This document shows, piece after piece, positions 14,379 through 50,251 of a stretch of 54,930 nt of DNA. The notes under the pieces were generated by a model, which saw only the letters and a list, made by a program, of their open reading frames with translations, had not been told where the DNA came from and made no database searches. The position numbers and the translations under genes were made by a program. The number at the start of each line of letters is the position of its first letter. Within the stretch, counting starts at the first letter, position 1. Source of the DNA: Leptolyngbya sp. BC1307 (GTDB lineage Bacteria > Cyanobacteriota > Cyanobacteriia > Phormidesmidales > Phormidesmidaceae); NCBI RefSeq assembly GCF_002286735.1, contig NZ_NRTA01000029.1, positions 1 to 54,930 on the forward strand, written 5' to 3'.

Positions 14379-14411
14379 AAAAAAAAGCCCACGGGAAATT
14401 CCTCATGGGCT
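14379..14411 (-). terminator. Rho-independent terminator for the 14457 gene
   Basis: AGCCCA (14386-14391) pairs with TGGGCT (14406-14411), with an inner GGAA/TTCC pairing. On the minus strand the hairpin is followed by eight T residues (the A-run 14379-14386). It should end the minus-strand transcript and may also act on the converging plus-strand AAA gene. Confidence 0.85.
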
Positions 14412-14456
14412 CCAGACAATGATTAGAGTAATCAAGCGGTGAGCTAGTGTGCGGGC

Positions 14457-14816
14457 TCAGGCACTCCGACGACGAGGACGCTTGTACTCAGACTTCTTTT
14501 TGTAGCCAACTGATTGAGCTTCGTCGCTGTTGGAACCAAATTGCCCGCGCACAGACTCTTTCATCGCCAATACCGCACTGTGAAACTCTACTTCGGCCTG
14601 GCGAGCGGCATCGGTAGCCGCTTTGAGCAGGGCGGCGATTTCTGTTTCTTTTTTCTGTTTGGTTAGCATGGCTTCGTAAACAGCTTGCAAGGCTGTTGGC
14701 GTGGCTTCATCGCGAGTGGGGATGTAGTTAGCGATGGTGGTAAGGCCATGATAGGCAACAATATCTGCGCTGATGGTTTTTGAAGAGACGCGGCGGGAAA
14801 AGTCAACGGTATTCAT
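14457..14816 (-). CDS. Hypothetical protein with basic KKKSEYKRPRR tail
   Basis: 119 residues, mostly helical and Ala-rich in the middle (IAALLKAATDAARQAEVEFHS), ending in VRGQFGSNSDEAQSVGYKKKSEYKRPRRRSA (shown only by its parts: a G-x-D-S-x-E spacer then a Lys/Arg block). Similar endings occur in hypothetical proteins of many bacteria; none known to me has an assigned function. The basic tail suggests nucleic-acid or membrane contact. A good terminator lies directly downstream. Confidence 0.7.
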   Translation of the reverse strand: MNTVDFSRRVSSKTISADIVAYHGLTTIANYIPTRDEATPTALQAVYEAMLTKQKKETEIAALLKAATDAARQAEVEFHSAVLAMKESVRGQFGSNSDEAQSVGYKKKSEYKRPRRRSA

Positions 14817-15371
14817 GGTAGATGGCCTCTTATTGGGCGTGAAATTCGGGTGTGAGCTTGAAACTGAGTGAGGTGAAAGGGCTATTATCTTTTTGTCTCA
14901 CCTGAAGAGAGATTGCCCCGTGGGAAAAGCGGAGTGATCGGCAAATTTGAAAGATTGTGAGTAGAAAGGAGAGTTTTGTATGAAGAAAGGATGAATCGAA
15001 GGAGGGGCAAAAAAGGGTAGTGCGATCGCACCTTTCGTGCGCGGTCTGCATCCTTTAGGTTTATCAATGATAGGGTTGCTGTGCATTGAGCGAAGAAGCT
15101 ATTAGCTTGTAAAACCAGTCCTTTGCTCTATGACACAAAAGGTTTGCATTGATGAATAAAAGGGATTTGTTTGCAAACTAAAGGTTTTAAGGCGCGAAGG
15201 CTTTGATCGCGCCATCGAACCAAAAGTTTCAGCGTGCGAACAAAGCCTTTTATCACTCAGATGAAAGGTTACGGTGGCAGGAGGAAGCGATCGCGCCCCC
15301 AAACAAAAGCTCCAGCGGCGCAATCACAGCCAACAGACTTCTGATCTAAAGGTGCGGGTATGGAAACAATC
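14817..15371. other. 555-bp gene-poor stretch
   Basis: Several short minus-strand frames overlap here, but none has coding character (low-complexity Ser/Phe/Leu, mutually overlapping), so I see no supportable gene. Recurrent AAAAGG/AAAGGTTT words appear between 15130 and 15260, and HIP1 sites occur near 15023 and 15287. It may be eroded coding sequence next to the island. Confidence 0.45.
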
Positions 15372-15623
15372 CTAAGCCGCCCGCACCCGCTTGGTGAGTA
15401 TTGCCATCACTTCATTGGGCCGACCCGTCGGCAAGAGCTGGCTCCAATCATTGGGCTCAGCGTAGCCCAGCCTGTGTAATTGCTGAATGGTCACCTGCAC
15501 CACGCCAGGACTGCCAAACAGCATGTGCCGTACAGGTTCAGCCGGTGAGCCAGCCGCAGCAGAAGCAGTGGACGCCATAGCGCCCGCAGTAGAAGGAACA
15601 AACATGAGATCTGGTCTCCGCAA
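15372..15623 (-). CDS. Small conserved cyanobacterial protein (LHRLGYAEPNDWSQ family)
   Basis: Up to 83 residues; the conserved part begins at Met34 (MLFGSPGVVQVTIQQLHRLG), and the Ala/Ser-rich segment before it may be an extension or untranslated. The core YAEPNDWSQLLPTGRPNEVMAILTKRV is a motif I recall from several cyanobacterial short proteins, often in multiple genomic copies. Function unknown. Start uncertain: either ATG at 15623 or Met34. Confidence 0.7.
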   Translation of the reverse strand: MRRPDLMFVPSTAGAMASTASAAAGSPAEPVRHMLFGSPGVVQVTIQQLHRLGYAEPNDWSQLLPTGRPNEVMAILTKRVRAA

Positions 15624-15893
15624 GTAGGGTTAGCGAGAAAACCAGAACTCAAGATCCTTAGCCACCCCGCAAAAGCTAGTGCAAACCAGGGCAGCTAAGG
15701 TACAGTGTCCTCAGCTCTCCAGACTGCGTGTTCAGTTTGGCGAGTTAGCCGTCGGTTAGGTGGTGGTACACCTGCCGATGGCGCTAAGTCAATTGAGTTC
15801 TGATGAGAGAGATTGCGATAGGCATCACAACCAATAGCTACAGAGCATAGGCTGATTTTTAGCTTTCGTCAAGCCATATGAGCATTGAGCTTC
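15624..15893. other. Intergenic stretch at the left border of the island
   Basis: No gene is visible. This segment separates the small conserved gene from the collapsed integrase and is where the ordinary chromosome gives way to accessory DNA. Confidence 0.45.
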
Positions 15894-16052
15894 TTAGAAA
15901 GCATCATCCAGCAGACTACAAACCTCCTGCTCTCCCCGATTGAGCACATGGGTATAGATTAGGGTCGTTTTGACATCTGACAGACCAAAGTGCTTGAGCC
16001 TGACTGCTTCTCGAACCCGATTTAGCAGACGAGGTAAATGAGACAACGGCAT
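15894..16052 (-). pseudogene. Integron-type tyrosine recombinase collapsed by internal deletion
   Basis: Reading the minus strand from ATG at 16052 to TAA at 15894 gives 52 codons. The first half (LPRLLNRVREAVRLKHF) matches the N-terminal SAM-like segment of integron integrases, which begin with a V-R-E-x-x-R-x-x-H pattern. The second half (SDVKTTLIYTHVLNRG) matches the extreme C-terminus with the nucleophilic Tyr. About 250 residues between them, with the catalytic Arg and His boxes, are missing, yet the frame is kept. The frame is open upstream to 16085. Its orientation is away from the cassette region, as in integrons. Confidence 0.8.
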
Positions 16053-16092
16053 ACTGACTGCTATATAAGCTGGAAATTTGGGTACTTATGCA

Positions 16093-16236
16093 GCAGTTAC
16101 GCCTGATAAGCACCTCGTACCCATACTTAGTATTGCAAAAGTGCTAGATAACACCCTGCTTCTACGGACTTATACCGCAGAAATATCAGATAACTTCTGT
16201 AAACGGGGGCGTTACCCCGCAAAAGTGTCAGGTAAG
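16093..16236. repeat. Four 18-bp direct repeats with exact 42-bp period
   Basis: Units start at 16093, 16135, 16177 and 16219: GCAGTTACGCCTGATAAG, GCAAAAGTGCTAGATAAC, GCAGAAATATCAGATAAC, GCAAAAGTGTCAGGTAAG. The consensus is close to GCARAARTGYCAGATAAS, with 24-bp spacers. The array lies between the integrase remnant and the first cassette, exactly where an integron's attI and promoters are found. The 42-bp spacing equals four helical turns, which suggests protein-binding sites. Confidence 0.7.
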
Positions 16237-16256
16237 CTAAAAATTTAGGGTGTTAT
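16148..16256. repeat. 10-bp inverted repeat spanning the array
   Basis: ATAACACCCT (16148-16157) is the exact inverse of AGGGTGTTAT (16247-16256), enclosing the third and fourth repeat units. It could fold as a long cruciform or represent part of a recombination site. Confidence 0.5.
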
Positions 16257-16269
16257 TCAGTAGATCTGA

Positions 16270-16289
16270 CGTTGAATATATAGTTAGCC
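16270..16289 (+). other. attC/attI-like right half-site
   Basis: CGTTGA about 8 bp before GTTAGCC (16283-16289) repeats the L'-R' layout of the attC at 17205-17220 (CGTTGA then GTTAGCT). GTTAGCC fits the core site G^TTRRRY apart from the C at position six. Recombination here would define the left end of the nucleotidyltransferase cassette. Confidence 0.5.
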
Positions 16290-16351
16290 CCCATAGACCT
16301 ATGTGCCGTAAGCGCCGCTGAACACAACCTTTAGCCTGTGAGTATCTCACC

Positions 16352-17140
16352 GTGACAAGCCTAGACGACATGCGCGATCGGATCCGTATCGCAGTGGCTA
16401 AGGCGCTTCGGCCTAGCCCGGATGTGCTCGCTGGATGGGAGGGGGGTAGCGCCGCCTTTGGAGTTGTCGACGCCTATTCGGACATCGACCTCTCCTTTCT
16501 CGTCATCGATGCCGCTTCGTTAGACGCCTTGTACGCGATCTCGGAAGAAGCGCTGCGCGAAATATCTCCGATATTGGCTAGCCATAACGCCCCGCCTGGA
16601 CGCTACTACAAGCTCAGAGATGCTGGGGATTTTCTCCTGCTAGACCTTTGTTTTTTTCGGGTAAGTGACTCCGACTACCAGCTTGATGTCGACCGCCATG
16701 GTCAAGCGGTACCTCTGTTCGACAAGGCTGACTGGTTACACGCATCGGATACGAGCGACCCCGCTAAGGCGACTGCGCGACAGCACCGGTATACTGAGTT
16801 GCAGGGATGGTTCCTGGTAAGCCAAGACTTTGTTCGAAAGGAGTTGTTGCGGGGCCGCTCTGCTGACGCCATGGCGGCTTTCTGGGGCTATACACTCCGA
16901 CCTCTTGCTGAATTGTTGCGCATGCGCTATTGCCCGGCCCGTTGGGACTTTGGAATGAGGTACCTCGACCGCGACCTGCCTCCATCGGTGCATGCGCAGT
17001 TCTGCGAATTGCTCTTCGTTCGAGACCTTAAGGACTTGGAGTACCGATTCGCCGCAGCCCAGGCCTGGGGCACCGAGCTGCTCAACGAATTGGCTGAGCG
17101 AGTGGGCTCCGAAAGCAGTGAGCCGAAGAATGGCGGCTAA
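16352..17140 (+). CDS. Nucleotidyltransferase-domain protein (gene cassette)
   Basis: 262 residues from GTG at 16352. The polymerase-beta-like nucleotidyltransferase signature GGSAAFGVVDAYSDIDLSF (about residues 30-48) has the GS and the two Asp of DxD, with a likely third acidic residue in LLDLCFF. A helical C-terminal half follows, as in aminoglycoside/lincosamide adenylyltransferase relatives. It does not match a specific ANT class that I know, so an antibiotic substrate is only a possibility. The stop codon lies inside the first bases of an attC-like site, the arrangement expected for an integron cassette. Confidence 0.82.
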   Translation: MTSLDDMRDRIRIAVAKALRPSPDVLAGWEGGSAAFGVVDAYSDIDLSFLVIDAASLDALYAISEEALREISPILASHNAPPGRYYKLRDAGDFLLLDLCFFRVSDSDYQLDVDRHGQAVPLFDKADWLHASDTSDPAKATARQHRYTELQGWFLVSQDFVRKELLRGRSADAMAAFWGYTLRPLAELLRMRYCPARWDFGMRYLDRDLPPSVHAQFCELLFVRDLKDLEYRFAAAQAWGTELLNELAERVGSESSEPKNGG

Positions 17141-42477: not shown

Positions 42478-43005
42478 ATGAGCACATCAACTGAAAAGAG
42501 CATTAGCTGGCTAGAGGAACTACTGAAGCTGCAGGGTCTTGAAACTCAGGTGAGCAGCAGCCAGACGACAGGAGAGTTGGGCGACGATAGCCATTGGCTC
42601 ACAATTGATACTACGCCCCTAACTGAGGCCCAAATAGACGGGCTCATTGGCGATCGCGGCCAGGTTCTTGACGCTATCCAGTATTTGGCCAATACCGTCT
42701 TGAATATGGGCCGCGAACCGGATGAGCAGCGGGCCTATACGGTTGAAATTAATGGCTACCGGCAGCAGCGTCAGACTGAGCTGAAGGCCATTGGCGAAGC
42801 CGCCGCCGAAAAAGTCATTGCCGACGGCGAAGAATATGAAATCAAAGGACTCTCTGCGGCTGAGCGCCGTCAGATTCACGGCTTGCTGGGTGACTATGAG
42901 CAGCTAGAGACTTTCAGTCGAGGGCATGAGCCTAACCGCCATCTGGTCGTTAAGCTAGCAGGAGAGACTGACGATGACGAAGATGCGGGCACCGAGGAAG
43001 AATAA
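42478..43005 (+). CDS. Jag/KhpB RNA-binding protein (KH-R3H)
   Basis: 175 residues. A KH-like domain (TPLTEAQIDGLIGDRGQVLDAIQYLAN) and a C-terminal R3H domain (LSAAERRQIHGLLGDYEQLE; EPNRHLVVKL). It is linked to YidC genomically in many bacteria and binds small RNAs or mRNA with KhpA in some. Acidic tail. ATG at 42478, 260 bp after yidC. Confidence 0.9.
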   Translation: MSTSTEKSISWLEELLKLQGLETQVSSSQTTGELGDDSHWLTIDTTPLTEAQIDGLIGDRGQVLDAIQYLANTVLNMGREPDEQRAYTVEINGYRQQRQTELKAIGEAAAEKVIADGEEYEIKGLSAAERRQIHGLLGDYEQLETFSRGHEPNRHLVVKLAGETDDDEDAGTEEE

Positions 43006-43071: not shown

Positions 43072-43569
43072 ATGAGAGCCATTCATATTCCGCAGATTTT
43101 AACGGCCCCGAACCGCACTATCTCGCTCGATGTCGCAGAGCATTTGCCTGAGTTAGAAACGCTGACGCCGGTTATAGGGGAGATGAGCGTCACGCACGAG
43201 GGCACATATCTGAACGTGAGAGCCCAGGCCAATGCGATTATGACTTTGGAGTGCGATCGCTGCCTGAACAGCTACAACGCGCGTATCCAGGTAAACGCTT
43301 CAGAGCTGGTCTGGCTCGAAGAGGCTGCTCCCGAAGCTGGCAGCGTAGAAACCGAAGTTGAGCTAGAAGACCTGGTCGAGTCGCTGTCGCCGCAGGGATA
43401 CTTTCATCCGGGGGAGTGGCTGTATGAGCAGATGTGTCTGGCCATTCCGCAAAAGCAGATTTGCCGCCCGGGCTGTCAGGGCATTGAAGTGAAAAATAAT
43501 CCACCGCAGATAGAGATTGACCACCGCTGGGCGGCCCTGTCTTCGCTTAAGCAGCAGCTATCTGAGTAG
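43072..43569 (+). CDS. YceD/DUF177 family protein
   Basis: 165 residues with the YceD CxxC motif LECDRCLNSYNARI and a C-terminal CRPGCQGIE, plus a central acidic stretch. DUF177/YceD proteins often precede rpmF or lie in the rnpA-yidC cluster and participate in 23S rRNA metabolism in plants and bacteria. Start at ATG 43072. Confidence 0.9.
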   Translation: MRAIHIPQILTAPNRTISLDVAEHLPELETLTPVIGEMSVTHEGTYLNVRAQANAIMTLECDRCLNSYNARIQVNASELVWLEEAAPEAGSVETEVELEDLVESLSPQGYFHPGEWLYEQMCLAIPQKQICRPGCQGIEVKNNPPQIEIDHRWAALSSLKQQLSE

Positions 43570-43857
43570 GCACAGCAAAGAGCCTGATGCGAGAATTAGC
43601 TAGAGAGCTACCGCTGGAATCTTCTAAATCCGGACAGTTTTAACTGGAATCTGATTATCTTTTTGATTGGGTTCTATCGATATACATTTGAGTTGGCAAT
43701 GTTTGCCATATCTCGATTGATCCGGATAGTAAGAAGCTACGAAATCAGGCAGTATGCTCTCATCTCAAGCTTGAGAAATTAATGGGTAAAATCCGTATTC
43801 TTTCGGTAGCTAGCTCCAGAGGGATCGTTCAATACCCTTTTGAGCCAGGGCATTCAC

Positions 43858-43935
43858 AGATAAAAACGATTGCTTGGCGCAGTTTTTATCTATTCACAAA
43901 CTTATAAAGTTGACATAACGCCTCAATGAGGTTTG
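43858..43935 (+). promoter_or_regulatory. Cluster of palindromes in the leader of the mosaic protein gene
   Basis: AGATAAAAAC (43858-43867) pairs with GTTTTTATCT (43882-43891) around a 14-nt loop; both arms are flanked by ATTCACA direct repeats. AACTTATAAAGTT and CCTCAATGAGG follow within 45 bp. The repeat density suggests operator sites or a structured RNA. Confidence 0.55.
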
Positions 43936-44005
43936 AATGGGATGGGTTAATTCAAAGACATTGCTATGTCCGCTCGATCATCGTCACTGATTGAGTGCAT
44001 CTGCC

Positions 44006-44042
44006 GAAGTTGTAATACTGAAGTTGTAATACTGAAGTTGTT
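44006..44042. repeat. 14-bp tandem repeat
   Basis: GAAGTTGTAATACT twice (44006-44033), then GAAGTTGTT. Private to this intergenic region. Confidence 0.88.
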
Positions 44043-44337
44043 TAAGCAAAGGACATTCTTTTCTATTCATTCTTGTCTCTATTTGCCCCAATAGATAGCT
44101 TCTTACTCTCTTTAACGACTGTCGGCAACCTTTATCTTTTAACAGCCTGAAAGCTTTCGTCGCAAACTTCAATAGGTTTGCGATCGCTCATCTTGCAGTT
44201 CTATCGCGCTTGACTTCTCGTTAGCAGCGTTTGGCGTGCGGTTCACTGTGCGGGTAGAGCAGGCTGTCATTTTTTTGAGGCTGCGTAACGGGTGCTTTTA
44301 CCGATCACCGTTACCCAACTTTTTAAGGACAGGAATC

Positions 44338-47300
44338 ATGGAAAATGCATCGATGGCATCCACTGGGATGGCACATAACGCTGGGCACAATCCTCATTCA
44401 ATGGCAGATGATCCTAAAAGACATCAGGATCACGAGGCTTTTGCCAAGCTGATGGCGGCAGCGACGCCTACCCACACAGCAATCAAAAGCGGGGCTTGGT
44501 CTGATCCTCAAACCTGGCAAAATGGCCGGGTTCCGGACGCTAACGCCACAGCGCTGATCAAGCAGGGGACGACGGTTACCTACGATCAGGTCAGTGACGC
44601 TCGGCTCCGAACGATCATCAACCAGGGAAATCTCAAGTTTGCAGCTAACAAAGACACTCAGCTCCTGGTTGAGACGATACTCAACGGGCCAGAAGGGAAG
44701 CTGGATATCGGCGCTGAAAATCAGGCGGTCGCGGCTGACAAAAAAGCCAGAATTATCTTTACCAGCGATCGCACCATCAACACCCAGTGGGACCCGACTC
44801 AGCTCAGTAAAGGGCTAGTCAGCCACGGTGAAGTCAATATCTACGGCGCAGACAAGCTCGATAAAGTGGCCCTCGCCGGAGATGCGACCGCCAGCAGCAG
44901 CGTGTTGACCTTTAAGCAAGCGCCCACGGGCTGGCAGATTGGCGACAAAATTGTCTTAGGCGGTACCGGCTACGGCTGGAACGGCACCGACGCCGACAAC
45001 TCCCGCCTGCAGGATGAGGTGCTCACGGTAACGGCTATCAACGGCAACCAAGTGAGCTTTGTCAATGACGATATTGAGTCGGGCGATCGCAACGTTCTCA
45101 GATTTGACCACACGCGCAGCGACATTACCGCCACCAATCAGCTCAGCCTCTACGCGGCTAACCTCACCCGCAACGTCAGCTTTGAAACTGAGAACGGTAA
45201 AAATGTGCCGATTGACCGTCGCGCCCATGTGATGCTGATGCACAGCCCCAAAGTCAACGTGCTCAACGCGGGCTTTTATGACTTGGGCCGCTCAGACAAG
45301 TCTAAGGTAGTTGACGATATCGGCAAAAATGTAGACGGCTCTAACGGCAACGGCTCTAATATTCGGGGCCGCTACTCGCTGCATCTTCACCGCACAGGCG
45401 CAGACAGTCTGGATGGTCAAGCGGCCCTGCTGCGCGGCAACGCGGTCGTCGGTAGCCCAGGCTGGGGAATTGTGCAGCACGACAGTCATGCCGGGCTCGA
45501 AGACAACATAGTCTTTGATGTGGTTGGCTCTGGTATTGTTGCCGAATCAGGCAACGAGATTGGCTGGTGGACTGACAATATGGTGATTAAAACAACTGGC
45601 GCGCAGGGGAAGGGTGACAGCCAGCGAGAGACCCGCGACAATCGCTTTGACTTTGGCTTTGAGGGCGACGGCTACTGGATTCAGGGAGCCGCTCAGGTCA
45701 AAAACAAAGACAACAAAGCAGTCAGCTCTAATCGCACCGGGATGACTCTCTTTGGTAGCGTTCTTGCGCCTAAAGGCCGCTTCCGCGATCAAGAGACTAT
45801 CTTAGTCAAAAATCTACCGGCAGAGCTGCAAAAACTCTTTCCCAAAGACCAGACTGAGGTGGACGTTCGCGATGTGCCCATGGCCCGCATTAGTGGCTTT
45901 GAGAGCTACAACGCACATACGGGCTTCCAGGTTTGGGGGCACCAGACCAACTTCGACGGCGAGGGGGATTTTAGTAGCCAAGATGTTAAAACGGCTCATC
46001 AGGGGCGATCGCTCATCGACAACTTCAAACTCTGGGGCAATCGCTGGACAGGCGCGGTCGTTCAGTACAGCACCCATATCGATCTCAAAGATGGCTTAAT
46101 CTTAGGTAGAGGCGCTGACAAAATCAGCGGCGGCCAGGGCTTATCCAACAACCACGCTAGCTTTGGGACTACCTATGACAACCTGACAATCGCTGGGTTT
46201 TCAGAAGGCGTACAGTTTGAATACCCCAACAACGACAAAGACTTTATCAGCCCCGAGCTAAAAAACAGCAAGCTGTTTAACAACACTTACCACCTCGCTA
46301 AAGTCGGTCATCGAGGCCCAATAGACGGACGGCCCTCTGACTTTGGTTCGTTTGTAAAGCTCAGCAATAACCAGTTTGCAGAGCAGCAGAACAATCGCGC
46401 GCCAGTCGCGAAGTTTAGCAATAAGGGCATTGGCGGGCTCGCTGTCCAGCTAGATGGCAGCGCTTCCTCTGATCTCGATCCGCTGCGTTCGGCTGATGGT
46501 TCGCCGCGATCGCTCGCCAGCAAAGGCATTGCTGCCTATGGCTGGGATCTTAACAACGACGGCAAAATTGACCGCTTTGGCCGCACTATCAGCCATGTTT
46601 TCGACCAGGCAGGTAGCCGCGATGTCAGCCTGACCGTGCTCGATAGCCAGGGAAAAGCCTCCACACTTACTCAAAAGATCGATGTAAAACCAACGGCCTA
46701 CGCCAATGCCCTTAAAGACGGCGCTTTTAACAGCGGGACTAAACTGAGCGAAGGGTGGAAAAGCGGCAGCGGATCGTCCGACCAGGGCTGGTATGCCGAC
46801 AAAGGCGTCAGCCTTGCCGATGGCGCTGCCAAGCTCTCAGCAGCCGGTGACTGGGGCAATTTCTTAGGCCAGGTGATCCGAGATCAGCAGGTTCGACGCG
46901 GGCAGCAAAAGCTCAGCTTTAAGCTCAAAAATCTGGAAGGTTCGACCGGAAAGCCCTGGGAAAGAAACGAAATTAAGGTCACGCTCTGGGGCGTGAACGG
47001 CCAGTTTAACAACAACCCCTGGGAGGGAACCGGCCCCACTCAGCCGGGGACTTTGCCCATGCAGCGCACCCAGCTAGTCAGCAAAGCGTTCGGCGGTGAA
47101 GCGGGTGAGTTCTTCGATTGGAAGAACTTCAATATGGATGTCAATTTGGGTAAAGGCTACGACTATCTCCTATTTCAGGTGAGTACGACTCGTACTAACA
47201 ACCCTCAAGACTATGTCGCCATTGACAATATCTCTTTGACCGGGGCGGCAGATACCCTATCGAAGCCCAGCGGCGAGACGGCGGTACTGTCTAGTAACAT

Positions 47301-48507
47301 CACCAGGCCCAGCAGCTCGCAGCCCCTGGTTTCAGCAGATGTGCAGAGCTTTACCAACGAAGTGCTGAGGCTCACTAATGAGTTCAGAGCAGAGAACGGA
47401 TTAGCCCCACTGAAGGCTAACGCTGAACTAGCTCAGGCAGCGCAGGATTACTCAGAAACCATGGCTATTGGTGATTTCTTTAGTCACACGGGCAAAGATG
47501 GATCTAACCTGGGAGACCGGGCTGAGCGAGCCGGTTATGAAGCGTTGAGACTGGGTGAAAATATTGCGGCAGGGCAGCGATCGCCCGAATCAGTCGTCAA
47601 TGGCTGGATCAACAGCCCTGGTCACCGGGCCAACTTACTCAACCCCAACTATACCGAGCTGGGCGCGGGCTACTTCAAGCTAGATAACGACACCGGCTCG
47701 GTAAATTACAACACCTACTGGACGCAGCTCTTTGGCAGCGGCGATCTCAAGCCCGATACAGCACCTGCACCTGCGCCTACCAAGCAACCGATCGCCAAAC
47801 TGATGACGCCCCCCACGGTCAATCTAGACCCGGTCGCCAAACTCAGCTTTGATGAAGGCACTGGCAAGCTAGCAGTAGACACTGCTCCGGGCGTTAAAAA
47901 CAACGGTCGGCTGCGCGGCGATGCGAGATGGACGCCGGGGAAAGCGGGTCAAGCTGTCGCCTTCGACGGCACAGGAGATGTCGTTACTTTGAACGACGCC
48001 AAAGAGATCAACCTGGGCACCCACGCCCAGCGCAGCGTTTCTCTGTGGTTTCGAGTAGACGAGGCAGCAGCTGGTCGCCAGCAGGTGATCTACGAAGAGG
48101 GCGGTACTACGCGCGGTCTCAACGCCTATGTGCAAGACGACCTGCTGTATGTGGGCGGCTGGAATACACCCGAGAGCAAATGGTCTGGCTCGTGGCTGAA
48201 AACGGGCAATGTCTCATCTGGCCAGTGGCACCATGCCGCCCTTGTCCTAGACGGTAAAGAAACGGTGCAAGCAGGCGCACTCACCGCTTATCTCGATGGC
48301 CAAAAGATCGGGCAGATGGACGGCTCTCAGCTATGGGCGCACGGCGATGGCATCGGCATTGGTAATGTCAACGGCAACACCAGGTTTGAAGATGGCAACA
48401 GTTCAGGCTCAGCCTACGGTCTAGCTGGGGCGGTAGACGAGGTGCAGATTTTCAATAGCGCCCTCAACAGCACTCAGGTGAAGCAGCTAGCAACGGCTTT
48501 TGGCTGA
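44338..48507 (+). CDS. Giant mosaic protein: G8, beta-helix, PKD, CAP and LamG-like domains
   Basis: 1389 residues from ATG at 44338 (AGGACAGG upstream); an in-frame start at 44236 is less likely. Order: His/Met-rich N-terminus (1-40), G8 domain (about 45-125, SGAWSDPQTWQNGRVPD), a right-handed beta-helix region (about 230-680), PKD-like domain (684-784, YGWDLNNDGKIDRFG), a beta-sandwich (790-970), CAP/SCP domain (1000-1136, SHTGKDGSNLGDRAERAG and NSPGHRANLLNPNYTE), and a ConA/LamG-like sandwich (1160-1389). No Sec signal peptide. Possibly exported another way. Role unknown; adhesion or glycan binding is inference. Confidence 0.88.
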   Translation: MENASMASTGMAHNAGHNPHSMADDPKRHQDHEAFAKLMAAATPTHTAIKSGAWSDPQTWQNGRVPDANATALIKQGTTVTYDQVSDARLRTIINQGNLKFAANKDTQLLVETILNGPEGKLDIGAENQAVAADKKARIIFTSDRTINTQWDPTQLSKGLVSHGEVNIYGADKLDKVALAGDATASSSVLTFKQAPTGWQIGDKIVLGGTGYGWNGTDADNSRLQDEVLTVTAINGNQVSFVNDDIESGDRNVLRFDHTRSDITATNQLSLYAANLTRNVSFETENGKNVPIDRRAHVMLMHSPKVNVLNAGFYDLGRSDKSKVVDDIGKNVDGSNGNGSNIRGRYSLHLHRTGADSLDGQAALLRGNAVVGSPGWGIVQHDSHAGLEDNIVFDVVGSGIVAESGNEIGWWTDNMVIKTTGAQGKGDSQRETRDNRFDFGFEGDGYWIQGAAQVKNKDNKAVSSNRTGMTLFGSVLAPKGRFRDQETILVKNLPAELQKLFPKDQTEVDVRDVPMARISGFESYNAHTGFQVWGHQTNFDGEGDFSSQDVKTAHQGRSLIDNFKLWGNRWTGAVVQYSTHIDLKDGLILGRGADKISGGQGLSNNHASFGTTYDNLTIAGFSEGVQFEYPNNDKDFISPELKNSKLFNNTYHLAKVGHRGPIDGRPSDFGSFVKLSNNQFAEQQNNRAPVAKFSNKGIGGLAVQLDGSASSDLDPLRSADGSPRSLASKGIAAYGWDLNNDGKIDRFGRTISHVFDQAGSRDVSLTVLDSQGKASTLTQKIDVKPTAYANALKDGAFNSGTKLSEGWKSGSGSSDQGWYADKGVSLADGAAKLSAAGDWGNFLGQVIRDQQVRRGQQKLSFKLKNLEGSTGKPWERNEIKVTLWGVNGQFNNNPWEGTGPTQPGTLPMQRTQLVSKAFGGEAGEFFDWKNFNMDVNLGKGYDYLLFQVSTTRTNNPQDYVAIDNISLTGAADTLSKPSGETAVLSSNITRPSSSQPLVSADVQSFTNEVLRLTNEFRAENGLAPLKANAELAQAAQDYSETMAIGDFFSHTGKDGSNLGDRAERAGYEALRLGENIAAGQRSPESVVNGWINSPGHRANLLNPNYTELGAGYFKLDNDTGSVNYNTYWTQLFGSGDLKPDTAPAPAPTKQPIAKLMTPPTVNLDPVAKLSFDEGTGKLAVDTAPGVKNNGRLRGDARWTPGKAGQAVAFDGTGDVVTLNDAKEINLGTHAQRSVSLWFRVDEAAAGRQQVIYEEGGTTRGLNAYVQDDLLYVGGWNTPESKWSGSWLKTGNVSSGQWHHAALVLDGKETVQAGALTAYLDGQKIGQMDGSQLWAHGDGIGIGNVNGNTRFEDGNSSGSAYGLAGAVDEVQIFNSALNSTQVKQLATAFG

Positions 48508-48712: not shown

Positions 48713-50251
48713 ATGAGTTTTCGCGAAGAGCTGAGTTTGTTGGTGCGATCGCGCTACCCCCTGATCTACATTCCCACTCGTGAAGAGGAGCGGGCGGAGG
48801 CGGCGATCGCGCAGTGCGCCAAAAGTATGGGCGGCGATCGCGCCGTCTACACCTGGGACTACGTCGATGGCTACCAGGGCAACCCCACTGACAATGGCTT
48901 TGGTCGGCGCAATCCGCTGCAAGCGCTAGAGCTGATTGAAAAAGTTCCGGCCTCAGCAGCGGCGATCTTTGTGCTCAGAGACTATCACCGCTTTTTAGAA
49001 GACATTGCCATTTCGCGGAAGCTGCGCAACCTGCTGCGCCTGCTGAAGGCCCAGCCTAAAAACATTGTGATTTTGTCTGCTCAGCTCAGCGTTCCGGACG
49101 AACTGAGCAGCAGTATTACCGTGCTGGAGTTTCCGCTACCCGATGTCACCGAAATTCGCACCGAGGTGGATCGGATACTGGGGGCAGCCGGTAGCCAACT
49201 CTCGGCTCGCGATACTGATGAGCTGGTGCGCTCCTGTCAGGGGCTGGCCTTAGAGCGCATTCGCCGGGTGCTCTCTCGCGGCATCGCAGCCCACGGCACC
49301 TTTGAGCCGGGCGATATCGATCTGATTTTAGAAGAAAAGCGGCAGACCATTCGCCAGACCCAAATTCTGGAGTTTTATCCGGCCAGCCAGAAAATTTCCG
49401 ACATCGGTGGGCTCGATAGCCTCAAAGACTGGCTGCTAACGCGAGGCGGCGCTTTTTCTGAAAAAGCCCGTCAGTATGGCCTGCCCCATCCGCGCGGGCT
49501 GATGCTGGTGGGCATTCAGGGCACAGGTAAATCTTTGACGGCTAAGGCGATCGCCCATCACTGGCACCTGCCCCTACTGCGGCTAGATGTAGGCAGGCTA
49601 TTCGGCGGTCTCGTGGGCGAATCCGAATCACGCACCCGGCAGATGATCCAGCTAGCTGAAGCCCTAGCTCCCTGCATTCTGTGGATTGACGAAATTGACA
49701 AAGCCTTTGCCGGATTTGACGGTCGCGGCGACTCCGGCACGACTAGCCGCGTGTTTGGCACTTTTATCACCTGGCTCGCCGAAAAATCCTCTCCTGTGTT
49801 TGTCGTCGCGACCGCCAATAATATTCAATCACTGCCGCCTGAAATGCTGCGCCGGGGCCGCTTCGATGAAATCTTCTTTGTCGGTTTGCCCAGTCAGGAA
49901 GAACGAGAGGCGATTTTTGCGGTGCATCTAGCTCGCTTGCGACCCCACAACCTCTCTATCTACGACCTCAAACGGCTGGCCTACGAGACCCCCGATTTTT
50001 CTGGCGCTGAAATTGAGCAGGCAATTATCGAAGCAATGCATATTGGCTTTAGTCAAAACCGCGACTTTACCCATGACGACCTGCTCACTGCCGTTAGCCA
50101 GATCATTCCGCTAGCGCGTACCGCCCAGCAGCAGATAGAGGCGCTGCAAAGCTGGGCCGCTGCCGGTAGAGCCCGCATGGCCTCACGCCAGAGCTCTCTG
50201 ACAGAGCGGATTGAGCAGCAGCGCAAAAGTGATAGCACCAGTCCTGATTAA
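48713..50251 (+). CDS. Ycf46-like AAA ATPase
   Basis: 512 residues. N-terminal domain YPLIYIPTREEERAEAAIA with LLRLLKAQPKNIVILS, then an AAA module with Walker A GIQGTGKSLTAKAI (about residue 266), Walker B CILWIDEIDKAF, sensor TANNIQSLPPEMLRRGRFDE including the arginine finger and a C-terminal lid. It is the plastid Ycf46 relative, involved in CO2-use regulation in cyanobacteria in reported cases. In other cyanobacteria I recall it following the DUF177 gene directly; here a giant gene intervenes. Confidence 0.92.
   Translation: MSFREELSLLVRSRYPLIYIPTREEERAEAAIAQCAKSMGGDRAVYTWDYVDGYQGNPTDNGFGRRNPLQALELIEKVPASAAAIFVLRDYHRFLEDIAISRKLRNLLRLLKAQPKNIVILSAQLSVPDELSSSITVLEFPLPDVTEIRTEVDRILGAAGSQLSARDTDELVRSCQGLALERIRRVLSRGIAAHGTFEPGDIDLILEEKRQTIRQTQILEFYPASQKISDIGGLDSLKDWLLTRGGAFSEKARQYGLPHPRGLMLVGIQGTGKSLTAKAIAHHWHLPLLRLDVGRLFGGLVGESESRTRQMIQLAEALAPCILWIDEIDKAFAGFDGRGDSGTTSRVFGTFITWLAEKSSPVFVVATANNIQSLPPEMLRRGRFDEIFFVGLPSQEEREAIFAVHLARLRPHNLSIYDLKRLAYETPDFSGAEIEQAIIEAMHIGFSQNRDFTHDDLLTAVSQIIPLARTAQQQIEALQSWAAAGRARMASRQSSLTERIEQQRKSDSTSPD

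Follow-up and report, generated by a model that had tools for sequence, protein, structure and literature searches.

We infer, with a probability of roughly 60%, that a 1389-residue protein of Leptolyngbya sp. BC1307 is an exported G8/CEMIP-type beta-helix protein that modifies extracellular polysaccharide and carries glycan-binding modules together with a lineage-specific CAP domain. Its gene occupies positions 44338..48507 (1389 aa, open for 1389 codons from ATG) of the window, which is the whole stretch of DNA that was analysed, 54,930 nucleotides of contig NZ_NRTA01000029.1 (GCF_002286735.1, positions 1-54,930, forward strand); every feature named below lies on the plus strand. Remodelling of extracellular polysaccharide is considered the most likely role because several relatives of the protein sit among slime-polysaccharide genes. 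In the proposed mechanism the protein would leave the cell, probably by a type I route. The G8 domain and beta-helix would form the working part, a groove that may bind an acidic, possibly sulfated exopolysaccharide and may cleave or epimerise it at a cluster of six polar residues. The PKD domain would act as a spacer, a beta-sandwich and the C-terminal LamG domain would keep the protein on the glycan, and the CAP domain, an extra in the linker before LamG, would probably contribute a second, non-enzymatic binding function.

The reading frame is real, as the sequence-only reading had observed. A chance frame or frameshift artefact is rejected on the strength of the long open frame, a ribosome-binding-site-like AAGGA at 44325-44329, 8 bases upstream of the ATG, five domains above cut-off, and GC3 that is alike across all parts of the gene. 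An alternative GTG start at 44236 is possible. Residues 1-58 (44338..44511) form a His/Met/Ser-rich stretch, of which residues 1-23 have low confidence in the predicted model.

Domains were assigned by Pfam curated cut-offs, with matches inspected up to E 1. The G8 domain covers residues 59-174 (44512..44859; 66.2 bits vs a cut-off of 22.9). It is followed by the parallel beta-helix (about residues 175-715, 44860..46482), recognized by Pfam, by the predicted model and by its match to TMEM2; within it, CEMIP_beta-hel matches residues 339-471 (45352-45750) and is the weakest of the five Pfam matches, with a narrow margin (29.9 vs 27.3 bits). Then come PKD (PKD_4, residues 720-783, 46495..46686; 32.0 vs 27.0 bits), CAP (residues 1010-1132, 47365-47733; 96.8 vs 21.1 bits) and a C-terminal Laminin_G_3 sandwich (residues 1210-1381, 47965..48480; 56.6 vs 27.6 bits). 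All the domains that the sequence-only reading had named in this one chain are thus above their cut-offs, including G8 and CAP, on whose profiles it had staked its proposal. Its list overlooked a further beta-sandwich at about residues 791-970 (46708..47247), visible in the alignment of relatives and kept in 13 of 22 of them; Foldseek links it to carbohydrate-binding modules (2c26, 4xup, 7kwc).

The predicted model has a pLDDT of 82, and among solved structures it most resembles human TMEM2 (PDB 8c6i, Foldseek E 2.0e-15), with Z 25.4 and rmsd 3.2 for 514 aligned residues over residues 48-889. TMEM2 is also recovered by sequence with a profile of the helix (E 2.5e-6). In the predicted model G8 runs on into the beta-helix just as it does in TMEM2, and this merging, together with the G8 and CEMIP_beta-hel scores, places the protein in the G8/CEMIP type. 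Its likeness to CEMIP (KIAA1199/HYBID) and TMEM2/CEMIP2 consists of a G8 domain merged into a parallel beta-helix, the closest fold, and six identical polar residues. TMEM2 has an inserted lectin-like domain, called ILEI in Pfam, for which the window protein gives no Pfam match up to E 1. According to the available part of the TMEM2 paper (PMC10206443), that insert bears R265, D273 and D286; the same part describes no PKD, CAP or LamG for TMEM2. Next in the fold matches are the alginate epimerases AlgE6 and AlgE4 (Z 21.5 and 21.4). These C5-epimerases, with AlgG, resemble the window protein as parallel beta-helices that act on exopolysaccharide (Z 20-21.5), but identity to it is just 12-16%.

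The six residues R345, H349, H351, H381, E403 and E407 (45370..45558) make up a candidate functional site, identified from the alignment. Five of them are invariant in all 22 aligned sequences, H351 is kept in 20 of the 22, and all six are identical in TMEM2 in the helix-profile alignment. Because all six are kept in the human protein, a catalytic site shared with animal CEMIP and TMEM2 can be proposed. We put forward only tentatively that bacterial G8-helix proteins are exported enzymes that cleave or epimerise exopolysaccharide with an Arg/His/His/His/Glu/Glu active site, and that the animal proteins have the same site, the lectin insert being a later addition for substrate targeting. Neither the fold nor the conserved residues are proof of catalysis. 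Human CEMIP and TMEM2 have effects on hyaluronan, yet cleavage of hyaluronan by TMEM2, and its site, are contested, with PMC10206443 and PMC10276149 against such activity and PMC10474455 for it. The bacterial G8 family, often found next to polysaccharide genes and sharing six polar residues with TMEM2, offers a less complex system and a handful of residues for that question.

A different view of the same chain, which we regard as rather unlikely, is that it is a non-catalytic matrix protein or adhesin, its beta-helix a rigid stalk and its sandwich, CAP and LamG domains only binding glycans or partners. The presence of several binding-type domains in one chain agrees with such a role, as does the existence of beta-helix proteins that have the same LamG tail but lack G8 (L043, L016), and the available text of the TMEM2 paper (PMC10206443) does not confidently place an active site and observed no cleavage of hyaluronan. 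Invariance of Arg, His and Glu residues over a range that extends to TMEM2, however, exceeds what a stalk needs, and the proximity of relatives to polysaccharide genes also speaks against this view.

That proximity was seen in two sets of relatives. In 7 of the 8 plasmid records opened, which came from the 15 listed of 99, the neighbours of the G8 gene include genes for polysaccharide assembly. The same holds for 4 of the 6 cyanobacterial loci scanned, one of them that of a G002 relative 60% identical to the window protein over residues 36-968. Loci L146 and L148 and plasmid record H8 have no polysaccharide context. Among five control stretches, one from Ruegeria has three glycosyltransferases and one from Leisingera two sugar genes, so some plasmids are sugar-rich in any case. 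The earlier proposal that the protein acts on or binds extracellular polysaccharide thus gains from the gene context of relatives and from the structural likeness to TMEM2 and to alginate epimerases, but not from the gene's own neighbours, which are housekeeping genes (Jag/YceD-like, AAA ATPase) with no polysaccharide genes among them. Judged by titles and abstract starts, open-licence PMC yielded no paper about G8 proteins of bacteria, of cyanobacteria or roseobacters in particular, or with a link to exopolysaccharide; PMC13424714, in its available part, concerns animal fibrocystin.

As for export, a hydropathy scan, the sole method applied, finds no Sec-like hydrophobic core at the N-terminus after the ATG, in agreement with the earlier claim that a Sec signal is absent. 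That reading had suggested type I or another route. RTX repeats occur in 7 of 16 G8 relatives and 4 of 10 CAP relatives scanned, which hints that type I secretion may serve the family, and the genome itself encodes an HlyD that scores above cut-off (250.3 bits, with neighbours); its gene immediately follows that of an ABC exporter in which a C39-like stretch is present. Against this, the window chain has no RTX nonapeptide repeats, there being no HemolysinCabind among its Pfam matches up to E 1. The AlgE proteins combine type I export with RTX modules.

Among the 30 G8 ORFs scanned, the full six-part order occurs in 1, that of the window genome, the only one with CAP, and the six-part architecture is accordingly rejected as a conserved system. 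What recurs in cyanobacteria is the unit G8-helix-PKD-sandwich, with or without LamG. Six other members (one each in G004, G003 and G027, three in G002) share the same order and LamG end at 47-64% identity to the window protein, but lack CAP; in all six a gap falls where the CAP segment and its linkers (about residues 971-1190, 47248..47907) stand just before LamG as a clean insertion.

Profile and fold both place the segment in the CAP/SCP superfamily (4ifa, Z 22.7, 133 residues, 32% identity, in a second predicted model of CAP-LamG only, whose pLDDT of 71.5 gives modest confidence). It scores below the curated cut-offs for the YkwD subfamily (TIGR02909, 93 vs 171 bits) and the DalA lipoprotein (NF052539, 66.8 vs 200 bits). 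The same cyanobacterial family has CAP-RTX proteins (for example G028, G008, G021, G003) that fall in the same CAP subgroup, weakly supported at 88/93, and the G028 CAP is 71% identical; their frames span 362-386 aa and place CAP close to the N-terminus, followed by RTX, whereas the window CAP lies inside a G8 chain. The CAP tree picks out no single nearest CAP. Residues 1210-1381 are a Laminin_G_3, concanavalin-type sandwich by profile and fold, matching AbnA domain 4 (5hon) at Z 20.6 in the same model of modest confidence. Its fold matches also include binding domains of clostridial neurotoxins, which were set aside because this sandwich is common and similar scores are reached by arabinanase and sialidase lectin domains.

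The gene lies between Jag/KhpB-like (42478-43005) and YceD-like (43072-43569) genes, as we presume them to be, on the left and an AAA ATPase gene (48713..50251) on the right, landmarks defined by synteny; the Pfam AAA match is on the L150 paralogue rather than this copy. At the same yceD-X-AAA locus G004 has a G8..LamG protein, G001 has CAP-LamG (its LamG with an internal gap and below the Pfam cut-off), and G005 and G006 have nothing. Such variation, with the single occurrence of the six-part order, would suit a recent unselected fusion at a domain-swapping locus, in which the core may be useful while the CAP-containing chain has no function of its own. We consider this improbable, since all 1389 codons are open, every domain is intact, GC3 is similar throughout, and the CAP is 71% identical to that at the same locus in G001 and so did not arrive very recently. 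A tree built from the Jag, YceD and AAA proteins lacks the support needed to put CAP gain and loss in order.

The CAP insertion is a clear case of domain swapping in a large chain with the DNA element upstream unchanged. This noncoding element of 23 bases (43973..43995), preceded by a TTGACA-like box (43910-43915), is identical in G000, G001 and G004 at the locus. The hairpin it can form falls short of significance (z -1.31), and 43560-44400 has no Rfam match. The element is rejected as a regulon mark, because across 63 genomes exact copies of its 20-base core are confined to this locus in three of them; two further matches, each with 2 mismatches, are in G020 and G022.

The gene at 44338-48507 on the forward strand (1389 codons, with AAGGA eight bases before the ATG) encodes a protein to which a sequence-only reading had assigned G8, beta-helix, PKD, CAP and LamG-like regions, and all five score above the curated Pfam cut-offs (models G8, CEMIP_beta-hel, PKD, CAP and Laminin_G_3), CEMIP_beta-hel by a narrow margin. 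An additional beta-sandwich at residues ~791-970, between PKD and CAP, has no Pfam match; a fold search relates it to carbohydrate-binding modules. Some part of the chain matched in 45 of 58 relatives, frequently CAP or LamG alone, and G8 was found in 13 of 63 genomes of the family and in 7 of 386 sampled from the phylum (own genome counted in each case). These searches gave 31 distinct G8 ORFs, excluding a 60-residue fragment in relative G011 and a Pirellulaceae locus (L034) in which CAP had no hit; 30 were scanned with profiles built in this analysis, leaving out the fragment G434:C616. Seven of the 30, the window's among them, end in LamG. The combined architecture had been called new-looking. 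CAP occurs only in the window's ORF among the 30, several of which are truncated by contig ends, so that tail domains may have been missed in those. CAP and its linkers appear as a gap in all six other members of a seven-sequence alignment of LamG-ended G8 proteins, to which the window protein is 47-64% identical. Each part belongs to a known family; what is new, within the set searched, is their combination with CAP.

CAP domains of the window's subgroup also occur in two other long frames, of 1119 residues in G027 (L119 682-4038) and 1207 residues in G037 (L121 930-4550), with no further Pfam match in either; both contain a similar FDGNNND-type region, likewise without a Pfam match. In G011, LamG is joined to a more diverged CAP carrying an extra insertion. 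Two further frames were seen in these genomes: one of 1869 residues in G037 (L110 3-5609), combining subtilase (Peptidase_S8), G8, CEMIP helix and CBM6/CBM35-type domains, and one of 2936 residues in G027 (L103 848-9655), whose N-terminal end carries G8 and helix.

The window gene is flanked by a YceD-like gene and an AAA ATPase gene. At the equivalent site, relative G004 has a G8-to-LamG gene without CAP, and G001 has a CAP-LamG frame of 365 residues; its LamG is missing an internal segment and scores under the Pfam cut-off. In G005 and G006, ~105-120 bases without a gene separate the two landmarks, and the ATPase has different neighbors in G002 and G003. A 23-base noncoding element (43973-43995), downstream of a TTGACA-like box and containing a CTCGATCA/TGATTGAG dyad, is identical in the own genome, G001 and G004, where it precedes genes of three different domain compositions; its 20-base core has no exact copy elsewhere in 63 genomes. 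The LamG domains of these three genomes and one G002 copy form a single clade (support 95/96). Because differing domain versions share the locus, the element and a LamG clade, we conclude that domains have been exchanged in place at one locus. CAP may have been present before the split from G001 and then lost in G004, or may have moved later. An unselected fusion is an improbable reading of the protein. On contig G002:C1, a DDE transposase (L147 6766-7701) separates the G8-LamG gene from that of a beta-helix protein ending in the same LamG, and may offer a route for tail swapping.

A model of residues 1-985, built from 22 sequences (pLDDT 81.8, pTM 0.75), has as its top solved-structure match the TMEM2 ectodomain (Foldseek E 2.0e-15; Z 25.4 over 514 residues), followed by the epimerases AlgE6 (Z 21.5) and AlgE4 (Z 21.4). 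A helix profile also detects TMEM2 by sequence (E 2.5e-6), aligning R345, H349, H351, H381, E403 and E407 with identical TMEM2 residues. H351 is kept in 20 of 22 sequences and the other five are invariant in all 22; since further residues, such as H297, R318, K321, N341 and D438, are equally invariant, the six are chosen by identity with TMEM2. Their positions in the model, on or next to strands 348-351, 378-381 and 400-402, are consistent with successive helix turns, and they would cluster in space as a candidate site. On TMEM2 itself, PMC10474455 speaks for activity and PMC10276149 against it. A non-catalytic matrix protein is a less likely second possibility. We favor, at about 60%, an exported remodeller of acidic polysaccharide, in which the helix groove would act on the polymer, the sandwich and LamG would be putative binders, and CAP would be an added module with a putative ligand.

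Gene context is consistent with this polysaccharide role. Polysaccharide genes adjoin the G8 gene at four of six cyanobacterial loci, as a raw count: L144 (10 of 13 listed neighbor ORFs scanned; ABC export pair, pyruvyl transferase, glycosyltransferases), L145 (8/12; flippase, sulfotransferase, glycosyltransferase), L147 (6/11; GH10, WecG, glycosyltransferases, Wzy_C) and L150 (5/10; Poly_export, EpsH). None were found among scanned neighbors at L146 (5/13) and L148 (4/8), or among the compared neighbors of the window gene. At L148 (contig G002:C2), an 802-residue RTX protein (14393-16798) lies near the G8-LamG gene. Against plasmids, tblastn with the window protein hit 99 records, and eight of the 15 matches listed cover the G8-helix part. 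All eight were examined, and in seven, which are not independent (three are Leisingera), the G8 gene lies among polysaccharide-assembly genes, with glycosyltransferases in 7/7, sulfotransferases in 5/7, GH16 enzymes in 5/7, and export, chain-length or kinase genes in 6/7. The eighth (26% identical) has no such genes around it. Control stretches elsewhere on five of the seven plasmids contained no polysaccharide-assembly genes in three; the Ruegeria control had three glycosyltransferases and a flippase-like gene, and the Leisingera control two sugar-nucleotide genes and a type I exporter. The plasmid of Leisingera sp. NJS201 (L135 4269-10960) carries a tandem pair of G8 genes with one protein accession within polysaccharide genes, with a calcium-binding or hypothetical gene after each of the two. 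What gene context and conserved residues say about bacterial CEMIP-like proteins is a more useful outcome than the CAP combination; we found no paper on it in open-licence PMC, and others may exist.

In line with the earlier claim of no Sec signal, a hydropathy scan of the protein shows no Sec-like hydrophobic core after its ATG. Most relatives likewise lack one in the same scan, with moderately hydrophobic stretches in G131a, G335 and LamG_G014; the highest score went to the lipoprotein-like CAP protein on contig C10, as expected of a signal-bearing protein. RTX repeats exceed the cut-off in 7 of 16 G8 ORFs (barely in G335) and 4 of 10 CAP proteins, and in the own genome an HlyD gene scoring above cut-off immediately follows that of an ABC exporter with a C39-like stretch. 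Because the window protein has no RTX repeats, we only infer a type I route for it. The genome's other CAP protein (L002 1441-2304; G000:C10:88695-89225 and around) has what we take to be a lipobox-like N-terminus and a PEP-CTERM-like C-terminal end, so that the genome's two CAP proteins would appear to be exported in different ways.
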